64,000 nt of DNA, taken from the NCBI GenBank assembly GCA_945865565.1, contig CAMBEK010000002.1, forward strand, positions 301,644 to 365,643, written 5' to 3'. Each line of letters starts with the position of its first letter. Positions within the stretch are counted from its first letter, which is position 1. Below, one piece after another: positions 20,078 through 34,953 of this stretch. Made by a program: the position numbers and the translations under genes. The notes beneath the pieces were generated by a model. It saw only the letters and a program-made list of their open reading frames with translations. It made no database searches and was not told the origin of the DNA. Source of the DNA: Pseudobacteriovorax antillogorgiicola (GTDB lineage Bacteria; Bdellovibrionota_B; Oligoflexia; Oligoflexales; RGVZ01).

Positions 20078-21820
20078 ATGGCCAAGATAGCTTTGATTTC
20101 GGGTAAGTTGGAACAGGTTCCAGTGATGCATGTTTTTTCACGTCTTGCTGCGGTTCACGAGATTCGTATCCACGCTTTTTTGGGGTCGATTCCTGATTCC
20201 ATGCGTGATTGCGGATTCACCTTTAATCTATACGAGCCGGATTCGACCAGGGTTGGTTACATGGCTGGGCTTGAAAATCAGATTGCAGATGTTGATCTGA
20301 TTATCGTAGCAGGCTCTGAAAACCTGTCGTCTTTTCAGGCGCTGCGCTCCGCATTGAAGAATAATATCCCATGCCACACCATTTCATTTGATCTTGCTCC
20401 TCAGCCATTTGATGATTTCGTAAATATCCGGGCCATACGCCATGATGTTTTGAGTCGTAGCCAGATCATCTGGACGACCGGTGAGCGCTCCGTTGAAGCC
20501 CTGACTTTTGAGGGGCTGGAAATAAATCGAATGCATTCCCTGCCCGCCCTGTTTGACGAAAAATCCTTCCCTTTGGATGTTTTGCGCAGCAATAAGTTCA
20601 GAGACCACATCGGTATCAAGCGAGATGATTTTGTGGTCCTTTTTCAAGACGTTCTTGACCATAAAGGGGTGGCCGGAGAAGTGGTTAAGGCGTTGCATGC
20701 CCTGCGGGCTTCCGGGACGAATGGCTTCGAGAGGCTCGTGGTTTTGTTTTCCGGTCAGCGCGAGGGGTCAGAGCCACTGAAATACATGATTTCGGATTGG
20801 CGTCTCTCGAGTCACGTCAGATTTCTGCATCAGAATAGTTCGGAGTTCACACTGGATTTGCTGAATGGAAGCGATCTCGTCATCGGACCCTGCCATGGAC
20901 GTTCGAGCGAAGCTCACGTTCTGGCGGCGATGGCGAGCCTGGTTGGGGCCCGTCCTCTTCTTAATATTTCGCAATCGAGCGCTGGATGGGTGGATATTCC
21001 GTGCTTGAGCGTTTCGGAATACACCAGCCTTCCTCTGGCAAAGGCTCTCAAAAGTGCTTTGGCAGAGGTTGAAACCAGGGTGGAGCGTCGCGATAATTTT
21101 CTCGGTGTGATTGGCTCCAAAGAGCGGCAACTTGACGGTCAACATTTCATGGATTTGATTCAACTTTCAGCTGTGAAAGCAGGTTCAGAAATTGCGGCAG
21201 CCACTGACCAGTTGTTTGAGCAGCAAGTAATGTCGGTTGAGGCGATGGGCGTCGGAACGTCGCTCGATGACCGGCTGCACGCCGTCGAAGACCTTTTATT
21301 GCGCCAACCCCCTGCCCCCTTGGCTGCCAGAATTCACCTGTGCAAGGGATCGGCCCTTTATGCCGCCGGCCAATACGAGGCGGCTACAGAAGCCTACCGT
21401 GCTGCATTGCTTTCCATGCATGGTGTTCTAAATGGTGAAAGTTCCGCTCAGCCGCGTTCATTGATTTCGAGCTGCTACCGCGGCCTGGGGAACGTTGCAG
21501 CCGCAGTTCAATCCCATCAGGAGGCACTCGACCTCTACCGACGGGCTCTTGCCTTGGAGCCACAGGATTCTCTTACGTGTGCTGGGATTGGCAACGTTTA
21601 CCGCCGCCTTCGGCTTTACGATGAGTCACTGCATTGGCTGGCAAAATCGGCATTGTCGATGCCTGATGACGTGTCCGGATTGACTCGCTTTTCTCAAGTC
21701 CTCCTTGAGTGCCCAGAAAAACCTGTGGCCGCCAAAGCCTTGATGGAGGTCCTGCAGGTGGTTGGTGAGCATCCCTCATTGGCGAAAGCAATGGTCAGCC
21801 TTGATGTTCGGCTGGATTGA
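20078..21820 (+). CDS. Glycosyltransferase-like protein with C-terminal TPR repeats
   Basis: 580 residues. The N-terminal ~340 residues look like a GT-B glycosyltransferase: 'KIALISGKLEQVPVMHVF' start, a central 'FVVLFQDVLDHKGVAGEVVKAL' segment reminiscent of the second Rossmann lobe, then 'LLNGSDLVIGPCHGRSSEAHVLAAMAS' resembling the donor-site 'EGFG..ALEAMA' region. The last ~180 residues are TPR repeats ('ALDLYRRALALEPQDSLTCAGIGNVYRRL'). GGGAGG lies 5 nt ahead of the ATG. It may be a protein glycosyltransferase; the acceptor is unknown. Co-transcribed with the S41 protease. Confidence 0.65.
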   Translation: MAKIALISGKLEQVPVMHVFSRLAAVHEIRIHAFLGSIPDSMRDCGFTFNLYEPDSTRVGYMAGLENQIADVDLIIVAGSENLSSFQALRSALKNNIPCHTISFDLAPQPFDDFVNIRAIRHDVLSRSQIIWTTGERSVEALTFEGLEINRMHSLPALFDEKSFPLDVLRSNKFRDHIGIKRDDFVVLFQDVLDHKGVAGEVVKALHALRASGTNGFERLVVLFSGQREGSEPLKYMISDWRLSSHVRFLHQNSSEFTLDLLNGSDLVIGPCHGRSSEAHVLAAMASLVGARPLLNISQSSAGWVDIPCLSVSEYTSLPLAKALKSALAEVETRVERRDNFLGVIGSKERQLDGQHFMDLIQLSAVKAGSEIAAATDQLFEQQVMSVEAMGVGTSLDDRLHAVEDLLLRQPPAPLAARIHLCKGSALYAAGQYEAATEAYRAALLSMHGVLNGESSAQPRSLISSCYRGLGNVAAAVQSHQEALDLYRRALALEPQDSLTCAGIGNVYRRLRLYDESLHWLAKSALSMPDDVSGLTRFSQVLLECPEKPVAAKALMEVLQVVGEHPSLAKAMVSLDVRLD

Positions 21821-26366: not shown

Positions 26367-27290
26367 ATGGGTCTGCGAATAAGAACCAACGTCCAGTCAT
26401 TGGTGGCTCAAAGGCATTTTGGTGCGTCTACCAAAGGTGTAGCTGCCCAGACGGAAAAACTTTCTTCCGGATTCAGGATCAACAAGGGTGCTGATGACGC
26501 TGCTGGTTTTGCCATGGCGGAAGGTTTAAAGGGCGACATTCGTGCTCTTGGCCAGGCGCGCCGCAATGCCAATGATGCAGTGTCTCTGGTGGAAGTCGCT
26601 GAAGGCGGCCTCGACGAGATCAATAACATTATGATCCGTTTGCGCGAACTTTCGGTTCAGGCGGCATCTGATACTATCGGAGCTCGCGAGCGTGGGTACT
26701 TGAATGAAGAGTTCATGGCGCTTAAGGACGAGATTGACCGGATTGCGGTCTCAACTGAATTCAACGGCACGCGTTTATTGACTGGACAGAAGGAACTCGA
26801 CCCGTCGCTGCTCTCCGAGCACAACTATTCTCCCCTCGAGGTTCAGGTCGGCAAGGATTACTTTCCTGGGCCTGACGCATTGTCTGCCCCTAATCCGGTC
26901 AACATCATCCGCATGAACCTGGGAAATTTCAATGCGTCCACGGAAGGCGAAGATTCCCTTGGCCTCGGCAGTGCGCAGAACTCTGAAGGCTCCCGGGTCA
27001 ATGACAAAGTCGCGGCACAAAATGCCATGATGGTCATCGACAATGCCATGAATAAGGTTGCCTCTTACCGCGGTACTCTGGGTGCGACCCAGAATCGCTT
27101 CCAGAGTACGGACCGCAACCTTGGTATCCAGATTGAAGCATTGACGGCCGCCCGTTCACGGATCAAAGACGCCGACTTTGCGATGGAATCAGCGGAACTT
27201 GCGCAGCAGAGTATTCTGCAGCAGGCTGGCGTGTCGGTGTTGTCGCAGGCCAATCAGTTGCCAAATATTGCACTAAAGCTACTTCAGTAA
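26367..27290 (+). CDS. fliC: Flagellin
   Basis: 307 residues. The N-terminal D0/D1 region is canonical ('RIRTNVQSLVAQRHFGASTKGVAAQTEKLSSGFRINKGADDAAG' start) and so is the C-terminal D1/D0 ('IKDADFAMESAELAQQSILQQAGVSVLSQANQLPNIALKLL'-type end). The central variable domain is short, giving a small flagellin. It is a single gene, apart from the flagellar operon at 35-45 kb. A leader hairpin lies just upstream. No convincing sigma-28 or sigma-54 promoter was found. It converges with the LuxC-fusion gene, leaving 1 nt between stops. Confidence 0.96.
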   Translation: MGLRIRTNVQSLVAQRHFGASTKGVAAQTEKLSSGFRINKGADDAAGFAMAEGLKGDIRALGQARRNANDAVSLVEVAEGGLDEINNIMIRLRELSVQAASDTIGARERGYLNEEFMALKDEIDRIAVSTEFNGTRLLTGQKELDPSLLSEHNYSPLEVQVGKDYFPGPDALSAPNPVNIIRMNLGNFNASTEGEDSLGLGSAQNSEGSRVNDKVAAQNAMMVIDNAMNKVASYRGTLGATQNRFQSTDRNLGIQIEALTAARSRIKDADFAMESAELAQQSILQQAGVSVLSQANQLPNIALKLLQ

Positions 27291-27291
27291 T

Positions 27292-29829
27292 TTAACGAAG
27301 GTCGACCAAGGCTTTTATCTTGCCGGTGCGGCTCACCCGTGTGATGCCGCCGCTGGCGTGCGCCACGACTAGAAGTCGTGGAGACACCCACGTCCGAGGG
27401 TGCTGTGCCTGCAAATCTTTTGAGTGGCTGTAAACCTGGTCGACAATAAACCCCTGCTCCAATTGCTCAGCATTCTCATGCTCAATATGGAATTCGATGG
27501 TTTCCAGCGCTGCCTGATCCTGCTTGAGGACAATTTGGAATAAAGCCCCGTCCAAATTGCAGTCTGCCAAAGCCTTTTCGAAGTCATTTATAAAAAGGCG
27601 ACATGCCCAGATATTAAACTGGCTGTCTGATCTTCCGAGCAGGCGGAATCTGACGTCGCGGCTTCCGCATTGGCAAGCGGCATCCTCCTCCGAAATCCAC
27701 TCAAGAAGATCTCCGGTGCAAAGGCGAATGACAGGCATTTTCCTTTTGATCCGTGAGGTAACAACGCCTTCCCCGTTTATGATTTCAAGATGGACGTCTT
27801 CTGCAAACAAATGATGAATTCCGCCGTCGCTAAATCTGCACTGATAACCGATTGGGCCGGCATCGACCGACGCGTATCCTGCAGAGCCAAAATGGGTTGT
27901 TCCTGCGACAGCTTCAAGAAATTTTCGTGCTACCACACTGAGGTGTTCTCCCGCATATAAAACTGCAGGCATCGAAATTGTGCGTCCCGTGTCCTTGGCG
28001 TGACGTGCAAGCTCCACAAGTTGCGTGGGCAAGCCGACCACATACTTCGGTTTGAAACGCTCAAGGTACGTCAAAGTCTGATCCTTATCGGCGAGACCGC
28101 CGATAGGCAGCACGATTGCGCCAATCTTTGCCATGGCATGATCCACTGCCATAAACGAAGACCATAAGTTTCCAGCTACAAAAAGATTTGCGACCACGGT
28201 CCCGGGGGCTATGCCCTGGGAACGGAATCCCACTGCCAGCAGGTCTGCCACCTGGCTGAATTCGCGGTGTGTATAAACTGTGTATTTCGGTGATCCTGAC
28301 GTGCCACCAGATGAAAATATATAGCCACCGCTAACCGGTTCATGCATTCCCTCATGCGTAAACCGGGCCAGCCTCTCGTCGTTTGCTGTGTCGAGATCTG
28401 ATCCCCTGATCAGAGGCATTTCAGTGATTTTGGTGACAAGGCAGCCTTCCCGGAGTTGGCGATAGAATGGAACGTTTGCAATGGCATCGTTCGCAAGGCC
28501 TTCAAGTGAACCATCGATTTCTTCGGGAACAATTCTCGTCAACTCGACGAGGGTCATTTTTCCGTCGTGTGGTGCTCCGATCGGGGCTTGCATGACTTGG
28601 CCGAGGTGGGCAAAGCGCATGACGCCGAGGGCGCCCAGGGCGGCGATCATCGACTGCTTTTCTGCGCCCGTGGCCAGAAGTGAACATGATTGCAGGTAAC
28701 GGGCGAACGGGGAGAGTTGTTTCTTCAAGTCTTCGAGTGAGTCGTAAGTTTTACAGATCAAACTCCGGTTGAGAGGGGATGTCCGGAGTCCTGGGCTTGG
28801 GTCGTAGTGCAGGAGGTAGTCTTTGCCATTGCGAAAATCGCCACCCTTCTCGATTTTGTTGTATTCCGCTCTTGCGAATTCCTTACGTATCTCGACGTGC
28901 TCATCGTCGGAGAGGCGCCCACGGGCGTACTGAAAATTCTGTAGGGCAAGTTCCACATGGTCCATCAGCCCGGAGACGTCGCTCCCGTTCTCGACGAATA
29001 GATTTTGTGGCGAGGCGCACGCAGCCTGATCCCACATCGCGATATCCTGTGCGACCCAGGTGCCGGCTTGAGCCAGGCCGTGTCGCTTAAGCGCCTCACG
29101 CGTGATGGTCTGAAAAGAAATTTTTGGCCCGTACTCAATGAATTTGACGCCGAGAGGAAGTCCTTTTTTATAGGAGTGAATCATTTCCTCTCCTCCCCAT
29201 GCGATGATTCCGTTGGATTCCCTTTTGATCAAGGACTCCAAAGCCGGTATGCCGCTGCGAAAGTGAATCAGGGAGAACTTGTCACGCAAAATCCCCTCGT
29301 GATCAATATCTCTGATGGACTCAGCAAACAGCATGGGAAAAGACAGGTTTCGTGAACTAAGTTTTACGATGGACACATTTTTTGTGAGGAATCCCATCAG
29401 GAGCGAATCGATGGCTCCAAGGAATACGTTTCCAGCAGACACATGAAATAAAATCCCGAGAGGGAAGGCGCGCTCCATCCCGCCAAATGCATGGCTTGGG
29501 ACAAAGCGATCAAGTTTATCCGGTCCGCCAAAATCTGCCTTTATTCGGGCGCTTATGTTACGTGCATGGAGAAGTTCAGGAATTACGTCCAATGAATGAG
29601 CGATCATGTCGTCGCTGAACGGGACTTCGATTCTGGTCAAATCAAAGGCGCGGGACCAATAGTCGGAGCCATGTACCCATGCCTTGCTCAGGCGGTCCAG
29701 CACATCCACGACTCTCTGAACCGGTTGGGAAACCATCGCAGGGCAGCGTAGCCGGGCATCACGAAATGCCTGTGTCAGAAACGCCTCATCACAAACAGCG
29801 TCGGATGTTTCTTTTCCGTAGAGATACAT
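27292..29829 (-). CDS. LuxC-type acyl reductase fused to a PaaK/CapK-type adenylating domain
   Basis: 845 residues. Residues 1-~430 resemble LuxC fatty acyl-CoA/acyl-protein reductase (aldehyde dehydrogenase superfamily): 'FPLGILFHVSAGNVFLGAIDSLLMGFLTKN', 'GIIAWGGEEMI', and the probable catalytic Cys271 in 'WDQAACASPQNLFVE'. Residues ~440-845 resemble phenylacetate-CoA-ligase/CapK-like enzymes: nucleotide-binding 'SSGGTSGSPK' (506-515), 'AVLYAGEHL', 'MPVIRLCTGDLLEW'. LuxC reduces activated fatty acids to aldehydes with NADPH. The fused ligase half may load or transfer the acyl group. Last gene of the GNAT-LuxE-LuxC operon (3-nt gap). Natural product unknown. Confidence 0.82.
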   Translation of the reverse strand: MYLYGKETSDAVCDEAFLTQAFRDARLRCPAMVSQPVQRVVDVLDRLSKAWVHGSDYWSRAFDLTRIEVPFSDDMIAHSLDVIPELLHARNISARIKADFGGPDKLDRFVPSHAFGGMERAFPLGILFHVSAGNVFLGAIDSLLMGFLTKNVSIVKLSSRNLSFPMLFAESIRDIDHEGILRDKFSLIHFRSGIPALESLIKRESNGIIAWGGEEMIHSYKKGLPLGVKFIEYGPKISFQTITREALKRHGLAQAGTWVAQDIAMWDQAACASPQNLFVENGSDVSGLMDHVELALQNFQYARGRLSDDEHVEIRKEFARAEYNKIEKGGDFRNGKDYLLHYDPSPGLRTSPLNRSLICKTYDSLEDLKKQLSPFARYLQSCSLLATGAEKQSMIAALGALGVMRFAHLGQVMQAPIGAPHDGKMTLVELTRIVPEEIDGSLEGLANDAIANVPFYRQLREGCLVTKITEMPLIRGSDLDTANDERLARFTHEGMHEPVSGGYIFSSGGTSGSPKYTVYTHREFSQVADLLAVGFRSQGIAPGTVVANLFVAGNLWSSFMAVDHAMAKIGAIVLPIGGLADKDQTLTYLERFKPKYVVGLPTQLVELARHAKDTGRTISMPAVLYAGEHLSVVARKFLEAVAGTTHFGSAGYASVDAGPIGYQCRFSDGGIHHLFAEDVHLEIINGEGVVTSRIKRKMPVIRLCTGDLLEWISEEDAACQCGSRDVRFRLLGRSDSQFNIWACRLFINDFEKALADCNLDGALFQIVLKQDQAALETIEFHIEHENAEQLEQGFIVDQVYSHSKDLQAQHPRTWVSPRLLVVAHASGGITRVSRTGKIKALVDLR

Positions 29830-29832
29830 GGC

Positions 29833-30981
29833 TCACGTCCTTGTGGAAGATTCGTCAAGCAGCTTGGAAGCGGTTAAGGCGCAACCTTTGTGTTTGTGAA
29901 CACCGGCACGTCCAAGAATTTCGAGTGTCGCTCCCCCAATGCCGCAGTCACATTTTCCGATGCGCCCATAATCCGTCGTCAGAAGGCTGATGCTTGGATA
30001 GCTGGTTACATAGGAGCAAAGGAAATGGATCAGACCAGTCTCGCCGTTTGAAACGATGCTTAAATCCTTTGGCGAGCGAATATAAACCCTGGCATAATTC
30101 GGTATATGAAGTTGCCCTCGGGGGCAGTCACAATATGGAATTCCATGTTCAACCATTCCGAACATGTCCCGGTTGTTGGATGCTGGAATCCCAAGCCTGT
30201 CAGCCATGAAATTTCGAAATTCTGATTTTGGGATCTCCTCGCTGGCGAAGCCCTTCCATCCTCCCCCAGTTTGAATCCAGCTATTGATGGGGAGTCGCAA
30301 CTTGATGTTGTGATCGAGCACAATTTTGTAAAGGTGTGCAGGAAAACCCAATATGCGGACCGGTTTTGGTGAGGCCGCATAGCGCTGTAGGGTTTTGATG
30401 ACCCCGTCTACGTTTAAAGAGAAATCTCCCTTGGCATGGTCCCATTGGATCGCGTAGTAGACCTCGTTTTTATTTGTGAAACTTGTGAGCAGTTCATCCG
30501 TGAAGGCTGTACCAAGGTTGGTGGCAACCTTTGGGTCATAAGTAAAACAAAGATAATTGACGGCGTCCTGGGAAGTCATACCCAGAGCGTCATGGATCAT
30601 CCATGCAAGTTTTTTTACGCGAACCAGCGACTGGTGATCGAGCAGTATCTGGCTTTTCTGTCCGCTTGTTCCTGAACTTGTAAGGTTCAGGACGACATCG
30701 TCAGGGGAGCCTGTGATGAGTTCGTGTTCTTTAAAGAGATTTACCATGACGGGTGGTACGCGAGTCAGGTCATGTTCCGATTTGATGTCGCCTGGCTTGA
30801 GGCCTGCATGGTCCCATAAGCCTCGAAAGTATGAGTTTCCTTTGTAGTGAACTCCGGCACACGTTGCAAAACTTTCGTGAAAAAGTGCCTGGGCTTCTTC
30901 AGTGTTGTCGAATGGATCGCTTGAAAATAATCGATCGATACCAGCCTGGGTCTGGGCTGATGGTTGCTGTGCCGGTGGCAT
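29833..30981 (-). CDS. LuxE-type acyl-protein synthetase
   Basis: 382 residues. LuxE family hallmarks: an adenylate-binding loop 'NLTSSGTSGQKS' (~99-110), 'ILGFPAHLYKIV', 'QTGGGWKG' (ca. 252) and 'NNRDMFGMVEHGIPYCDCPRGQLHIPNYARVYIR'. In luminous bacteria LuxE activates fatty acid as acyl-AMP and hands the acyl group to LuxC; here its partner would be the fused LuxC gene immediately downstream. The ATG is 1 nt after the GNAT gene's stop. Substrate not inferable. Confidence 0.87.
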   Translation of the reverse strand: MPPAQQPSAQTQAGIDRLFSSDPFDNTEEAQALFHESFATCAGVHYKGNSYFRGLWDHAGLKPGDIKSEHDLTRVPPVMVNLFKEHELITGSPDDVVLNLTSSGTSGQKSQILLDHQSLVRVKKLAWMIHDALGMTSQDAVNYLCFTYDPKVATNLGTAFTDELLTSFTNKNEVYYAIQWDHAKGDFSLNVDGVIKTLQRYAASPKPVRILGFPAHLYKIVLDHNIKLRLPINSWIQTGGGWKGFASEEIPKSEFRNFMADRLGIPASNNRDMFGMVEHGIPYCDCPRGQLHIPNYARVYIRSPKDLSIVSNGETGLIHFLCSYVTSYPSISLLTTDYGRIGKCDCGIGGATLEILGRAGVHKHKGCALTASKLLDESSTRT

Positions 30982-30982
30982 G

Positions 30983-32143
30983 CTAGGACTCCATGGTCTG
31001 ATGCGGCTTCAGGAATTGTTCTTGAATGTTTCGGATATATTCTTCGAGGTAGATTCGATTCTTGCCGGCCAGTTTTAAATGACGAAAGTCGAGTATTTCA
31101 AATGTCCTGCTGAGAACAACAAAATCATACCGGTGATTGTTGTTGAGTTGAAACGCGGGGAAGTATGCGCAGGGCAAAAATCGGGCGCGGAGGACGCGTT
31201 CAATTGTTTTTGCCTTGTCGGCCCTGACGAGGATTTCGAGATACCTGACCCCGATGGTGTTTAAAAGTTTTACGGACTGCTCAAGGATGTTGGTAAAATC
31301 GTATTCACGCGGTTTCTTTACGCCCATGATCACACAGTGATCATCAACTTCAGACTTGTAGACAAAAATTTCCACAGTCTGACACGGTGAACTGATCACG
31401 ATGTTTGGGGAATGAAAAGGATAGAAGTGTGCGTGGAGAAGGTCTTTGTCCCGCTGACCTTCAAACCGGCATCGTGCGAATCTTTCTGCTTGGATCAGTT
31501 CCAGCTGTATGGAGTCTGGATAATCATTCAACGTTAGATCACCGTCATTTGCCGGCGTGAGCCGGGCCAATGTGCACTCTGTGCGTACAATCTCATAAAG
31601 ATTCATGATGGCTGGATGCAGTCTGAAATCCTGGAAGCGCGCCCAAAGGGCTTCGGTCGTAAAAAATGCAGTGAGGCAGTGTGTTTCATATACGTCTGTC
31701 TTATGGACGTTCGGAAAAATGCCAAGCTTTTTGTAGCCAAGGTGCTCTGTTACGATTTGGGGAGCTGGGGTTGACGTCCTCGTGGTTGCATAAATGACGT
31801 CTACGAGACCAAGCGTATTGGTTAAGTGTTCTTGGGCATAAACCATGGCGCGCTCCAGGATCCGGCAGCCCCGGTACGTTGCCATTACCGCCCCCCCGAA
31901 GGCCCGGGCTAGACGATGCAACTTGTCGCTTTCATAGACAACAGACCCGACAATCTGGCCTTGGTCTTCTGCGATCACCCAGACATTGGCCGCGTCTTCG
32001 AGGAATTTTGTCAGTAGAACTGTATCTCGCATCAGACGGTTGGTATAATTCCCGCCATAGACCAATTGGTATAAAACAGTAATGCCGGTGGCATCCTGCG
32101 GAGTTGCGAGACGAAGGTTTGGTGTCATCAACTTGGTCGTCAT
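30983..32143 (-). CDS. GNAT-like acyltransferase, probably two lobes
   Basis: 386 residues. The N-terminal ~160 residues look like a GNAT domain ('LRLATPQDATGITVLYQLVYGG', 'VWVIAEDQGQIVGSVVYES', 'GGAVMATYRGCRILERAMVYAQEHL'; the glycine-rich CoA loop is divergent). The C-terminal ~150 residues ('VEIFVYKSEVDDHCVIMGVKKPREYDF...VRYLEILVRADKAKTIERVLRARFLPCAYFPAFQ') resemble a second, degenerate GNAT lobe. First gene of the LuxE/LuxC operon, divergent from the MFS gene with 64 nt between. It may acylate the substrate or accept the acyl group (inference). Confidence 0.65.
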   Translation of the reverse strand: MTTKLMTPNLRLATPQDATGITVLYQLVYGGNYTNRLMRDTVLLTKFLEDAANVWVIAEDQGQIVGSVVYESDKLHRLARAFGGAVMATYRGCRILERAMVYAQEHLTNTLGLVDVIYATTRTSTPAPQIVTEHLGYKKLGIFPNVHKTDVYETHCLTAFFTTEALWARFQDFRLHPAIMNLYEIVRTECTLARLTPANDGDLTLNDYPDSIQLELIQAERFARCRFEGQRDKDLLHAHFYPFHSPNIVISSPCQTVEIFVYKSEVDDHCVIMGVKKPREYDFTNILEQSVKLLNTIGVRYLEILVRADKAKTIERVLRARFLPCAYFPAFQLNNNHRYDFVVLSRTFEILDFRHLKLAGKNRIYLEEYIRNIQEQFLKPHQTMES

Positions 32144-32207
32144 TCGATGGCGTTCTCCGTGCTCGCGTTGTGACGGTCAATTATCCAATATTCTCGTGGA
32201 GCCTGCA

Positions 32208-33473
32208 ATGTCGCCAAAAAGTAACTTACTGCTTCGCAATCGCGACTTCCGCCTCGTCTGGATTGGTCAGGTTTTAAGTCAGGCAGGCAGCCGTGCTTTT
32301 TTTATCAACCTGCTCTGGTGGATCATTAGTTCTGCGCCAGAAGTTCCCGGTGAACGCCACGGCACCGCTTGGGCCAGCGGCATACTTCTGATTTTGATGG
32401 GATTACCGTCGGTCTTACTCGTTCGGTGGATAGGCGAAATTCTTGAACGTTATGCGAGTCAGAAAATTCTGGTTTTCTGCGAGGCTACAGGTGCTTTGCT
32501 GTCACTGTTGGTCTTTGGCCTTTCCGTCACGGGGAATCTTTCCCTCGGATGGGTATACACCCTTTCGGGGTTGATTGCCCTGTGCCAGGCTTTCGTTGAT
32601 CCCACCCTCGTCAAGGCTGTTCCTGAGCTTGTCGATGAATCGGATATCGAGGCGGCGGTTGGACTTGAGTCGACGACGCAGGCTCTCGCTTTTTTCTCTG
32701 GAGCCGCAATTGGAGCGATTGCAAGTGGCTTGTTTGGGTTTTCGGTGACCACGGCGATGAACGCAGCCAGTTACGGTGTATCAGCGTTTATGACCTCGAG
32801 GGCGCGATTCCGTTCCAGTTCAATTTCCAGGAATAAGGAAGAAGCTAATAGTTCGACGATAAATAGCGCAAAGCCTCAGGATGGATTTGCGGTAGATGTT
32901 GGGCCACTGCTCAAGGCTTTTGGCATTGCCAATGTCTTCATGTTTCCTTTATTTCTTATTTTGCCTCTTTTTGTGAAAGAGTCTCTGCAGGGCAGCGTCA
33001 TTATGCTGGGGCTTCTCGAGGCCTGTTTTTGGTTTGGACTGGTCGCGGGAGCAAATCAGGCTTGGCGCCTTGATGCCAAGGGCAGGTTCATGAAATTGTC
33101 AGGGATTCTATTCTTCCTGTTTGGCGCGATGATATGCAGCATTGCCATCAATCCATCAGTGATCTGGGTTGCGGTTGTGCTGGTGTGCGGCGGGATCAGT
33201 GCTGGGCTTGTGAATGTCAAGGTCATCACGTATTTTCAAATTTCCGTGCCAGAATCCGCCAGGGCAAGCTTTTTCGCACGACTTCAGGCCTATGTTGCCG
33301 GCGCTCAACCTCTGAGTTATTTGCTGTTTACAGGCGTTCTTCTTTTTCTTTCGCCGGTGAATTCATTTGCGGTCAGCGGATTTGGTTTAGTGCTCGTGGG
33401 AGCGTTTTGTTGGTGGTACGACAGGCGCGTAAATCGCCTTACAGCTAAGAAGTCAGGGAGGACCATCCAATGA
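32208..33473 (+). CDS. MFS transporter
   Basis: 421 residues from ATG 32208 (GGAG at 7 nt). About 10-12 hydrophobic segments are seen; the N-terminus 'LLLRNRDFRLVWIGQVLSQAGSRAF' and the loop 'RYASQKILVFCEATGALLSL' are typical of MFS efflux/permease proteins of the MFS_3 (enterobactin exporter-like) type. It is divergent from the LuxC/LuxE operon and overlaps the next gene by 4 nt (ATGA). Substrate unknown; export of a product of the divergent operon is possible. Confidence 0.85.
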   Translation: MSPKSNLLLRNRDFRLVWIGQVLSQAGSRAFFINLLWWIISSAPEVPGERHGTAWASGILLILMGLPSVLLVRWIGEILERYASQKILVFCEATGALLSLLVFGLSVTGNLSLGWVYTLSGLIALCQAFVDPTLVKAVPELVDESDIEAAVGLESTTQALAFFSGAAIGAIASGLFGFSVTTAMNAASYGVSAFMTSRARFRSSSISRNKEEANSSTINSAKPQDGFAVDVGPLLKAFGIANVFMFPLFLILPLFVKESLQGSVIMLGLLEACFWFGLVAGANQAWRLDAKGRFMKLSGILFFLFGAMICSIAINPSVIWVAVVLVCGGISAGLVNVKVITYFQISVPESARASFFARLQAYVAGAQPLSYLLFTGVLLFLSPVNSFAVSGFGLVLVGAFCWWYDRRVNRLTAKKSGRTIQ

Positions 33474-34678
33474 CTCGATTCGGCATACTTTTTCTTATTT
33501 GTTTTTCCGTTCTAATTGTTTCCTGCGAGAGTCTCAGGCGGGGAGCTGTTCGCCTGTTGTCACTAGAGAAATATTCTCCCGGTCCAGTGCCTTCAGAGGC
33601 TAGTGGAGTCTCGGCAATCGAAGTGCCTGACGACAAGACCCAGGCTCTGAAACTTGAAAGGGTGGCTGGGGGATTCGATGGCATCACTGATGTTCAGTTT
33701 CTTCCGGGCGAAAATTTCCGGGCAGTTGTTCTTCAAAAAAACGGAGATGCCTTCATAATTAATTTGAAGGATGGTGTCCGTAGAAAATTATTTAGCGTTT
33801 CTGTGGCGACAACGTCTGAACTTGGACTCCTGGGTTTTGCCTTTCATCCAAGATTTTCTGAGTCAAAGAAATTTTATGTTCATTACAACCCGAAAAGCGA
33901 TTTGTCCCGGGTATCAGAATGGGAATGGGTGGAGAGCAGTGATCGTTTGGCAATTGAGTGCCGTGAGAAACGGGTGATCTTCGAGGTTGAACAACCATAC
34001 CAAAATCACAATGGTGGCAGCGTTGTTTTTGGTCCAGACCAGAAGCTCTACGTTGGCTTGGGCGATGGAGGGTGGAGAGGAGACCCAGAGAACCGCGCCC
34101 AGGACATGGGGTCATTCCTTGGAAAAATGCTCAGGATTGACGTCGAACAAAGTGTAGATGGCAAGTATAAGCCTGAGATCTTCGCGTCAGGACTTCGCAA
34201 CCCGTGGAAATATTCGTTTGACTCAAGGGGGCGGCTGGTCGCCGGGGATGTTGGGCAAGACAAATGGGAAGAAGTGACTTTTGTGGAACAGGGCGCAAAT
34301 TTGGGTTGGCGCCTTTTCGAGGGATCTCACTGTTACGATCCACCGGAAGAATGCGGGAAACGGGCTCCCGATCTTGTCGGGCCAGTTGCTGAGTACGATC
34401 ATTCATTAGGGGTAAGCGTAACTGGTGGGTTTGAATATATGGGCGCCGCAATTTCAGCCTTGAGGGGTAGATACTTGTTTGGTGATTTTGCGACTGGAAG
34501 AATTTGGAGCATTGTTTTGCCGGAAAAAACTCCAGTTCGTCCAATGAGCGGCAAGGACTTCCGTTTCCACGGTAGATGGCCGATTTTGATCTCCACGTTC
34601 GCCAGGGATGTAGCCGGTGAAATATATGTCGCGGATTACTCTGGCGGGAACATCTACAGGATTTCGTCCGGCAATTGA
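33470..34678 (+). CDS. Lipoprotein, PQQ-dependent sugar dehydrogenase / sorbosone dehydrogenase-like
   Basis: 402 residues. A lipobox at residues ~16-19 (LIVSC) gives a lipoprotein. The body is a soluble glucose/sorbosone dehydrogenase beta-propeller: 'GGFDGITDVQFLPGE', 'GLLGFAFHPRFSESKKFYVHYNPKS', 'QNHNGGSVVFGPDQKLYVGLGDGG', 'GKMLRIDV', 'GLRNPWKYSFDSRGRLVAGDVGQDKWEEV'. Such proteins bind PQQ and oxidise sugars in the periplasm, though some members lack PQQ activity; related folds (HHIP-like) exist. Translationally coupled to the MFS gene. Confidence 0.83.
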   Translation: MTRFGILFLICFSVLIVSCESLRRGAVRLLSLEKYSPGPVPSEASGVSAIEVPDDKTQALKLERVAGGFDGITDVQFLPGENFRAVVLQKNGDAFIINLKDGVRRKLFSVSVATTSELGLLGFAFHPRFSESKKFYVHYNPKSDLSRVSEWEWVESSDRLAIECREKRVIFEVEQPYQNHNGGSVVFGPDQKLYVGLGDGGWRGDPENRAQDMGSFLGKMLRIDVEQSVDGKYKPEIFASGLRNPWKYSFDSRGRLVAGDVGQDKWEEVTFVEQGANLGWRLFEGSHCYDPPEECGKRAPDLVGPVAEYDHSLGVSVTGGFEYMGAAISALRGRYLFGDFATGRIWSIVLPEKTPVRPMSGKDFRFHGRWPILISTFARDVAGEIYVADYSGGNIYRISSGN

Positions 34679-34953
34679 CCCAGGCAATGCAGGTGATTCG
34701 TCAAAAAACCACCGCTCACATTTTGACACCGGGCTAAAATTGCCCAATTCGTAATCTGACAGGCCCTGCCAAGATTCTGGCAGTCTGGTTGGTAGATAAA
34801 TAATTTTTATTAAATTGAACCGTGGTTTGGGCAGTATCGCTGGGGCTCGTTCCCTCGGTACGTCCGTGGGCATGAACTTGGCCTGGACTTTGCTTTAACA
34901 GGGTGAACGTTAAAACCTGAAAGTCAAAGTACGTCACTCATAGAGGTTAATCG
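34679..34953 (+). other. Intergenic region upstream of the flgF operon
   Basis: 275 nt without a gene. It contains a GGGC...GCCC hairpin (34732-34746) soon after the dehydrogenase stop, without a T-run, and a sigma-54-type promoter at 34879-34894. No RNA gene was recognised. Confidence 0.6.
34879..34894 (+). promoter_or_regulatory. Sigma-54 (RpoN) promoter of the flgF-flgJ operon
   Basis: TGGCCTGGACTTTGCT fits the TGGCACG-N4-TTGCW consensus at all positions except the fifth and sixth, with the essential GG and GC dinucleotides at the correct 10-nt spacing. It lies 60 nt upstream of the flgF ATG. RpoN control of rod and ring genes is common in polar-flagellated bacteria. Confidence 0.75.

Follow-up and report, generated by a model that had tools for sequence, protein, structure and literature searches.

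What does an operon for LuxC- and LuxE-type enzymes make in a bacterium without luciferase, and does its position against a flagellin gene bear on the product? The operon lies in the window (the whole stretch analyzed, 64,000 nucleotides of Pseudobacteriovorax antillogorgiicola), where an earlier note had described a GNAT-like protein, a LuxE and a LuxC carrying a second adenylating domain, encoded at 1- and 3-nt gaps. The reading frames and domains were as claimed, with three ORFs on one strand separated by 3 and 1 nt (Table 1). A divergent MFS gene, overlooked in that note, is part of the same cassette set.

Table 1. Features of the cassette and of its insertion site in the window
Feature	Position	Strand	Basis
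LuxC acyl-thioester reductase (residues 34-432)::PaaK-type AMP ligase (residues ~445-845)	27292-29829	-	Pfam/NCBIfam profiles, catalytic residues
LuxE acyl-protein synthetase, acyl-transfer Cys367	29833-30981	-	PF04443, 165 bits; alignment with 7xc6 LuxE
GNAT acyltransferase with a second, C-terminal alpha/beta domain	30983-32143	-	Model fold, family HMM
MFS exporter, divergent cassette member	32208-33473	+	PF07690, 60 bits; TIGR00900, 98 bits
GSDH-type protein, within the insert, no part of other cassettes	33470-34678	+	PF07995, 124 bits
Insert of ~7.4 kb between fliC and flgF	27291-34697 (right edge approximate, 34697-34700)		Absent from G040/G041, present in G042
Flagellin fliC of the host, beside which the insert lies; outside the cassette	26367-27290	+	

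Profile searches yielded clear matches for the two lux-type domains (236.6 bits for LuxC, across its whole assigned domain, and 165 bits for LuxE), and the poor matches that the earlier note had named as counting against it did not occur. The PaaK-type domain scored 63-84 bits with NCBIfam PaaK-type models, under their cut-offs, and 29.7 bits with Pfam AMP-binding (cut-off, 29.9). The GNAT assignment was weak from sequence alone (18.7 bits, under the cut-off), but an AlphaFold2 model built from 40 relatives (pLDDT 92) revealed a GNAT fold at residues 6-172 (Z 13), and the protein scored 386 bits with a family HMM that excluded the window and its sister species. The EntS/Mef-like MFS protein likewise scored 283 bits with a cassette MFS HMM from which both were left out. 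The catalytic cysteines of LuxE and LuxC aligned with those of the LuxC-LuxE complex structure 7xc6, and we take Cys271 of LuxC and Cys367 of LuxE to act as in the established lux enzymes. Among the family members checked, Cys367 was invariant in 55 of 55 and Cys271 in 54 of 54, and a catalytic-type Lys in the C-terminal part of the ligase domain was conserved in 54 of 54. Every gene of the insert was under purifying selection relative to the sister species G042, Ka lying well below Ks (0.067 versus 0.86 for LuxC::PaaK and 0.030 versus 1.00 for GNAT). Thus, given the invariant cysteines and the low Ka, the operon is not a chance find. The genome contains one LuxE gene, and its second LuxC-profile match (24 bits) spans just 68 profile positions. 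No separate PaaK-type ligase was found in the insert or in the rest of the genome, which is 90% complete.

As the earlier note had claimed for the window, the cassette is luciferase-free, and this held genome-wide: no luxAB pair was found, the sole match to the bacterial luciferase family (PF00296) being a weak lone gene (48 bits). A bioluminescence operon was rejected since no luxA and luxB pair was found in the genome. The cassette resembles the lux fatty acid reductase (LuxC-LuxE, 7xc6) in both catalytic cysteines and in overall LuxE and LuxC sequence. Unlike lux operons, it has no luxA, luxB or luxD, its LuxC bears a ligase domain, and its proteins scored far under the cut-offs of the NCBIfam LuxC/LuxE equivalogs (88 versus 750 and 100 versus 550 bits).

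The stop codons of the flagellin gene (27288-27290) and of LuxC::PaaK (27292-27294, opposite strand) are 1 nt apart, and the two genes converge. In G040 and G041, which belong to the same genus, fliC is 90% identical and flgF follows after ~0.3 kb with no cassette there; the fliC-flgF gap is ~1 kb in G036, G037 and G039, without a cassette at the site, and consists of 3.6 kb of other sequence in G034. The 7.4-kb insert occurs in the window and in G042, and the GSDH-type gene is found at this site in these two genomes only. Base composition gave no signal of recent foreign DNA (GC 50.6% in the insert versus 52% in its flanks). G040 (from a scan) and G041 (read by eye) have a likely terminator 3′ of fliC, made up of an inverted repeat and a T-run. 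The insert took the place of this terminator-like stretch, and a terminator scan found no plus-strand site just 3′ of fliC in the window; fliC transcripts may therefore run antisense into LuxC::PaaK.

LuxC and LuxE are thought to serve in acyl modification of the flagellin glycan in flagellin glycosylation islands, a role made conceivable here by the adjoining fliC and by the LuxE/LuxC genes that accompany pse genes in the flagellin islands of Aeromonas and Enterobacteriaceae (PMC7874193, PMC4875605). For the window we consider it very improbable. The known islands hold a separate ACP, FabG and ligase besides the pse genes, whereas no NeuB was found in the window genome and no ACP or FabG ORF within the insert. 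Moreover, cassette-free relatives retain the same flagellin region, and the cassettes of G034 and G036 lie elsewhere in their genomes, away from flagellin. The flagellin link proposed in the earlier note was thus rejected, and the adjacency is best read as the insertion site only. Elsewhere in the window, a protein encoded at 20078-21820 has a weak group-1 glycosyltransferase domain and TPR repeats; it lies near fliC and also occurs beside pnp in the cassette-free G040, and is a candidate flagellin glycosyltransferase not tied to the cassette. Flagellin-type sequence gave nine matches on several contigs of the genome, counting fragments and FlgL.

A genome search with the LuxE profile yielded 80 loci; after addition of loci from the phylum and removal of duplicates, 82 were analyzed. 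Since these were picked by LuxE alone, the neighbors that recur are an independent result, in a sample leaning toward LuxE proteins that resemble the window's. LuxC lay beside LuxE in 80 of the 82 loci, and the LuxC::PaaK fusion was present in 77, GNAT in 74, a separate PaaK in 64 and an MFS or MATE exporter in 47, some of the missing neighbors being due to contig ends. The cassette was spread over about ten phyla, archaea included. A LuxE tree (quick method, with a long-branch warning) also covered about ten phyla, with at least six changes of the Bdellovibrionota label on well-supported branches. The window LuxE and its sister form a long branch in this tree, so the substrate of the window enzyme may differ.

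The recurring neighbors bear on the product. According to the lux pathway, the cassette would supply a fatty aldehyde for a lipid of the envelope or a secreted one, as the intact catalytic residues of LuxE and LuxC and a family name referring to fatty acids would allow. We regard this as quite unlikely, because no ACP, ketosynthase, wax or lipid gene family recurred next to the cassette among the neighbors of the LuxE loci, and the extra PaaK ligase(s), the GNAT and a drug/siderophore-type exporter better suit a small amide. Nothing was found in favor of the envelope lipid suggested in the earlier note.

A carboxylic acid reductase of the GriC/GriD type appeared rather unlikely. The PaaK domain would adenylate an aryl or other acid for reduction by LuxC, with LuxE feeding in a second acid, to give a GNAT-modified nonpeptide aldehyde or alcohol; the AMP-binding GriC together with GriD converts 3-amino-4-hydroxybenzoate to its aldehyde in grixazone synthesis (PMC10179220). 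Such a pairing of an AMP-forming enzyme with a reductase is seen in the window as well, and its PaaK domain matched PaaK, BagE/FevW and FlxY models. However, GriC and GriD are two proteins with precursor genes alongside, while no precursor genes recurred beside the cassette in the neighbor survey of LuxE loci. In these LuxE-selected loci, LuxC::PaaK nearly always occurs with LuxE, which a two-part system would not need, and we know of no LuxE that accompanies GriC/GriD. The leupeptin operon (leup) is the better fit to the gene set.

Classical leupeptin enzymology comprises a leucine acyltransferase, an ATP-dependent synthetase and an ATP/NADPH reductase, and a set of GNAT, PaaK ligases, LuxE, LuxC and exporter fits this chemistry. 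In Xenorhabdus bovienii, according to a summary in PMC11212599 (citing Li et al. 2020), separate AMP-dependent ligases form the amide bonds of leupeptin and a reductase forms the aldehyde. The leupABCD genes adjoin a transporter and are an insert in some strains that is missing from others (PMC8283571). Counted from where the leupA primer begins, at 315403 of Klebsiella michiganensis CAV1374 (CP011636.1), to 321183, the published cluster measures 5,781 bp; the leupB primer lies 1,217 nt into it, at a site encoding EQLKDH (PMC8283571). In a search of Enterobacterales, LuxE, LuxC::PaaK, PaaK and GNAT were found over 5,778 and 5,763 bp in two genomes (G711 and G602) called Xenorhabdus-like by their flanking genes only. 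The LuxC::PaaK N terminus at locus L192 reads SEQLERQ around nt 1,198, a short stretch similar to the primer-encoded residues. No near-exact match to the leup primers was found in the Xenorhabdus-like or Salmonella loci (6-7 mismatches), so the comparison is limited to encoded residues and positions. Each of these agreements in span and primer site is indirect, yet together they seem unlikely to have arisen by chance. We infer the identity with leup from them and from a one-sentence description in the literature. E. coli gave no match when searched for leupABCD.

The window operon and leup (Klebsiella michiganensis/oxytoca, Photorhabdus and Xenorhabdus) would thus have in common LuxE next to LuxC::PaaK, a GNAT and an exporter alongside, and both occur as inserts in some genomes, with close relatives lacking them. 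Identity of the window LuxE to the Xenorhabdus-like one is only ~35%, and matches were seen for LuxC and PaaK too. The window differs in having no second, separate PaaK-type ligase, in its MFS gene on the opposite strand and in its GNAT, which belongs to the other of the two cassette families, that found in Streptomyces. The earlier note had counted a known O-antigen or lipid pathway using these genes against itself; a known pathway probably does use them, but it is that of leupeptin, not one for O-antigen or lipid.

We therefore read the operon of the window, with a probability of roughly 0.6, as a divergent one of the leup type that would make an N-acyl peptidyl aldehyde for secretion, a leupeptin-like protease inhibitor. 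The GNAT would N-acylate an amino acid, and the PaaK-type ligase domain would adenylate this acyl-amino acid and join a second amino acid through an amide bond. LuxE would then adenylate the C-terminal carboxylate and hold it as a thioester on Cys367, and LuxC Cys271 would receive the acyl group, which NAD(P)H-dependent reduction would turn into the aldehyde, with the MFS protein as the putative exporter. Two suggestions of the earlier note gain support here, that activation and reduction of an acid yield an aldehyde serving a purpose other than light and that two activating domains plus an acyltransferase go beyond aldehyde supply. On the assumption of one amide bond per PaaK domain, the two bonds of leupeptin would take two domains, and the single domain of the window, instead of the usual two, would make one; the predicted product is an N-acyl dipeptide aldehyde rather than the tripeptide leupeptin.

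The two GNAT families divide the wider cassettes. The window's kind pairs with an MFS exporter (37 of 38 MFS loci), while the other usually has an N-terminal RsbW-like HATPase domain and pairs with a HATPase-fused MATE exporter (9 of 9). STAS and SpoIIE genes adjoin the HATPase-GNAT/MATE cassettes in nine to ten loci. Cassettes flanked by STAS, RsbW-like HATPase and SpoIIE genes were seen at L036:6322-8942, L077:5290-14309, L039:8673-13882 and L043:2896-5422, and such cassettes come from Clostridia, Desulfobulbaceae, Sulfurimonas and Methanomassiliicoccales. Besides its fusion to GNAT, the HATPase domain is joined to a MATE exporter in clostridia and archaea. Of 393 genomes sampled from the genus that includes Streptomyces virginiae, 45 (~11%) gave a strong LuxC::PaaK match, one of them over the LuxC part only. 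The Streptomyces cassette PaaK-MFS-GNAT-LuxE-LuxC::PaaK (e.g., NZ_CP108162) shares its GNAT family, MFS, LuxE, LuxC::PaaK and the order LuxE to LuxC::PaaK with the window and differs by its separate PaaK. Among 369 gammaproteobacterial genomes drawn evenly, the full fusion was found only in Algicola; a 16S pattern found no enterobacterial genomes in part of this draw.

Several single loci deserve mention. In an Elusimicrobia locus (L069:6572-7729), the GNAT is ~50% identical to the window's and LuxE only 37%, suggesting that cassette genes are exchanged separately. Conjugative IncF plasmids of Salmonella enterica, CP053580.1 (L151) and CP054717.1 (L189), carry LuxE, LuxC::PaaK, PaaK and GNAT with an apparent MFS fragment upstream, the GNAT frame being split in CP053580; the Salmonella plasmids NC_019126 and CP053407 hold a short LuxE-like stretch. 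On a Streptomyces europaeiscabiei plasmid (L154:2992-11450), LuxE and an unfused LuxC adjoin YcaO and DUF692 genes and perhaps tailor a ribosomal peptide to a C-terminal aldehyde. A Priestia megaterium plasmid (L152:5736-11664) has a distant LuxE with phosphopantetheine-binding and AMP-binding proteins, an oxidoreductase and a cysteine desulfurase, which is a different kind of LuxE context.

As far as the literature searched tells, leupeptin genes were not assigned until 2020, in gammaproteobacteria, and no family member with a known product was found there outside that class. Searches for LuxC/LuxE with PaaK, SpoIIE or RsbW returned no report of the cassette gene set, and the breadth of the family and its attached SpoIIE/STAS/HATPase modules seem unreported in that literature. 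We tentatively suggest, as a possibility that is itself doubtful, that the Bdellovibrionota lineage is a single-ligase leup branch whose N-acyl dipeptide aldehydes form a new class, and that the wider family is a cross-domain pathway for protease inhibitors or signals, wired in anaerobes and methanogens to SpoIIE/STAS/anti-sigma partner switching, with HATPase domains fused to GNAT and MATE.

Leupeptin is a standard laboratory protease inhibitor. If the leup-type reading is right, bacteria of about ten phyla, as well as methanogenic archaea, would carry the genes for leupeptin-type chemistry free of NRPS, a range that takes in ruminant gut lineages and ~11% of the sampled genomes of the Streptomyces genus. 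Annotation scatters the genes concerned under the names "acyl-protein synthase," "acyl-CoA reductase" and "phenylacetate-CoA ligase," and the number of PaaK domains would be a direct, testable predictor of peptide length.
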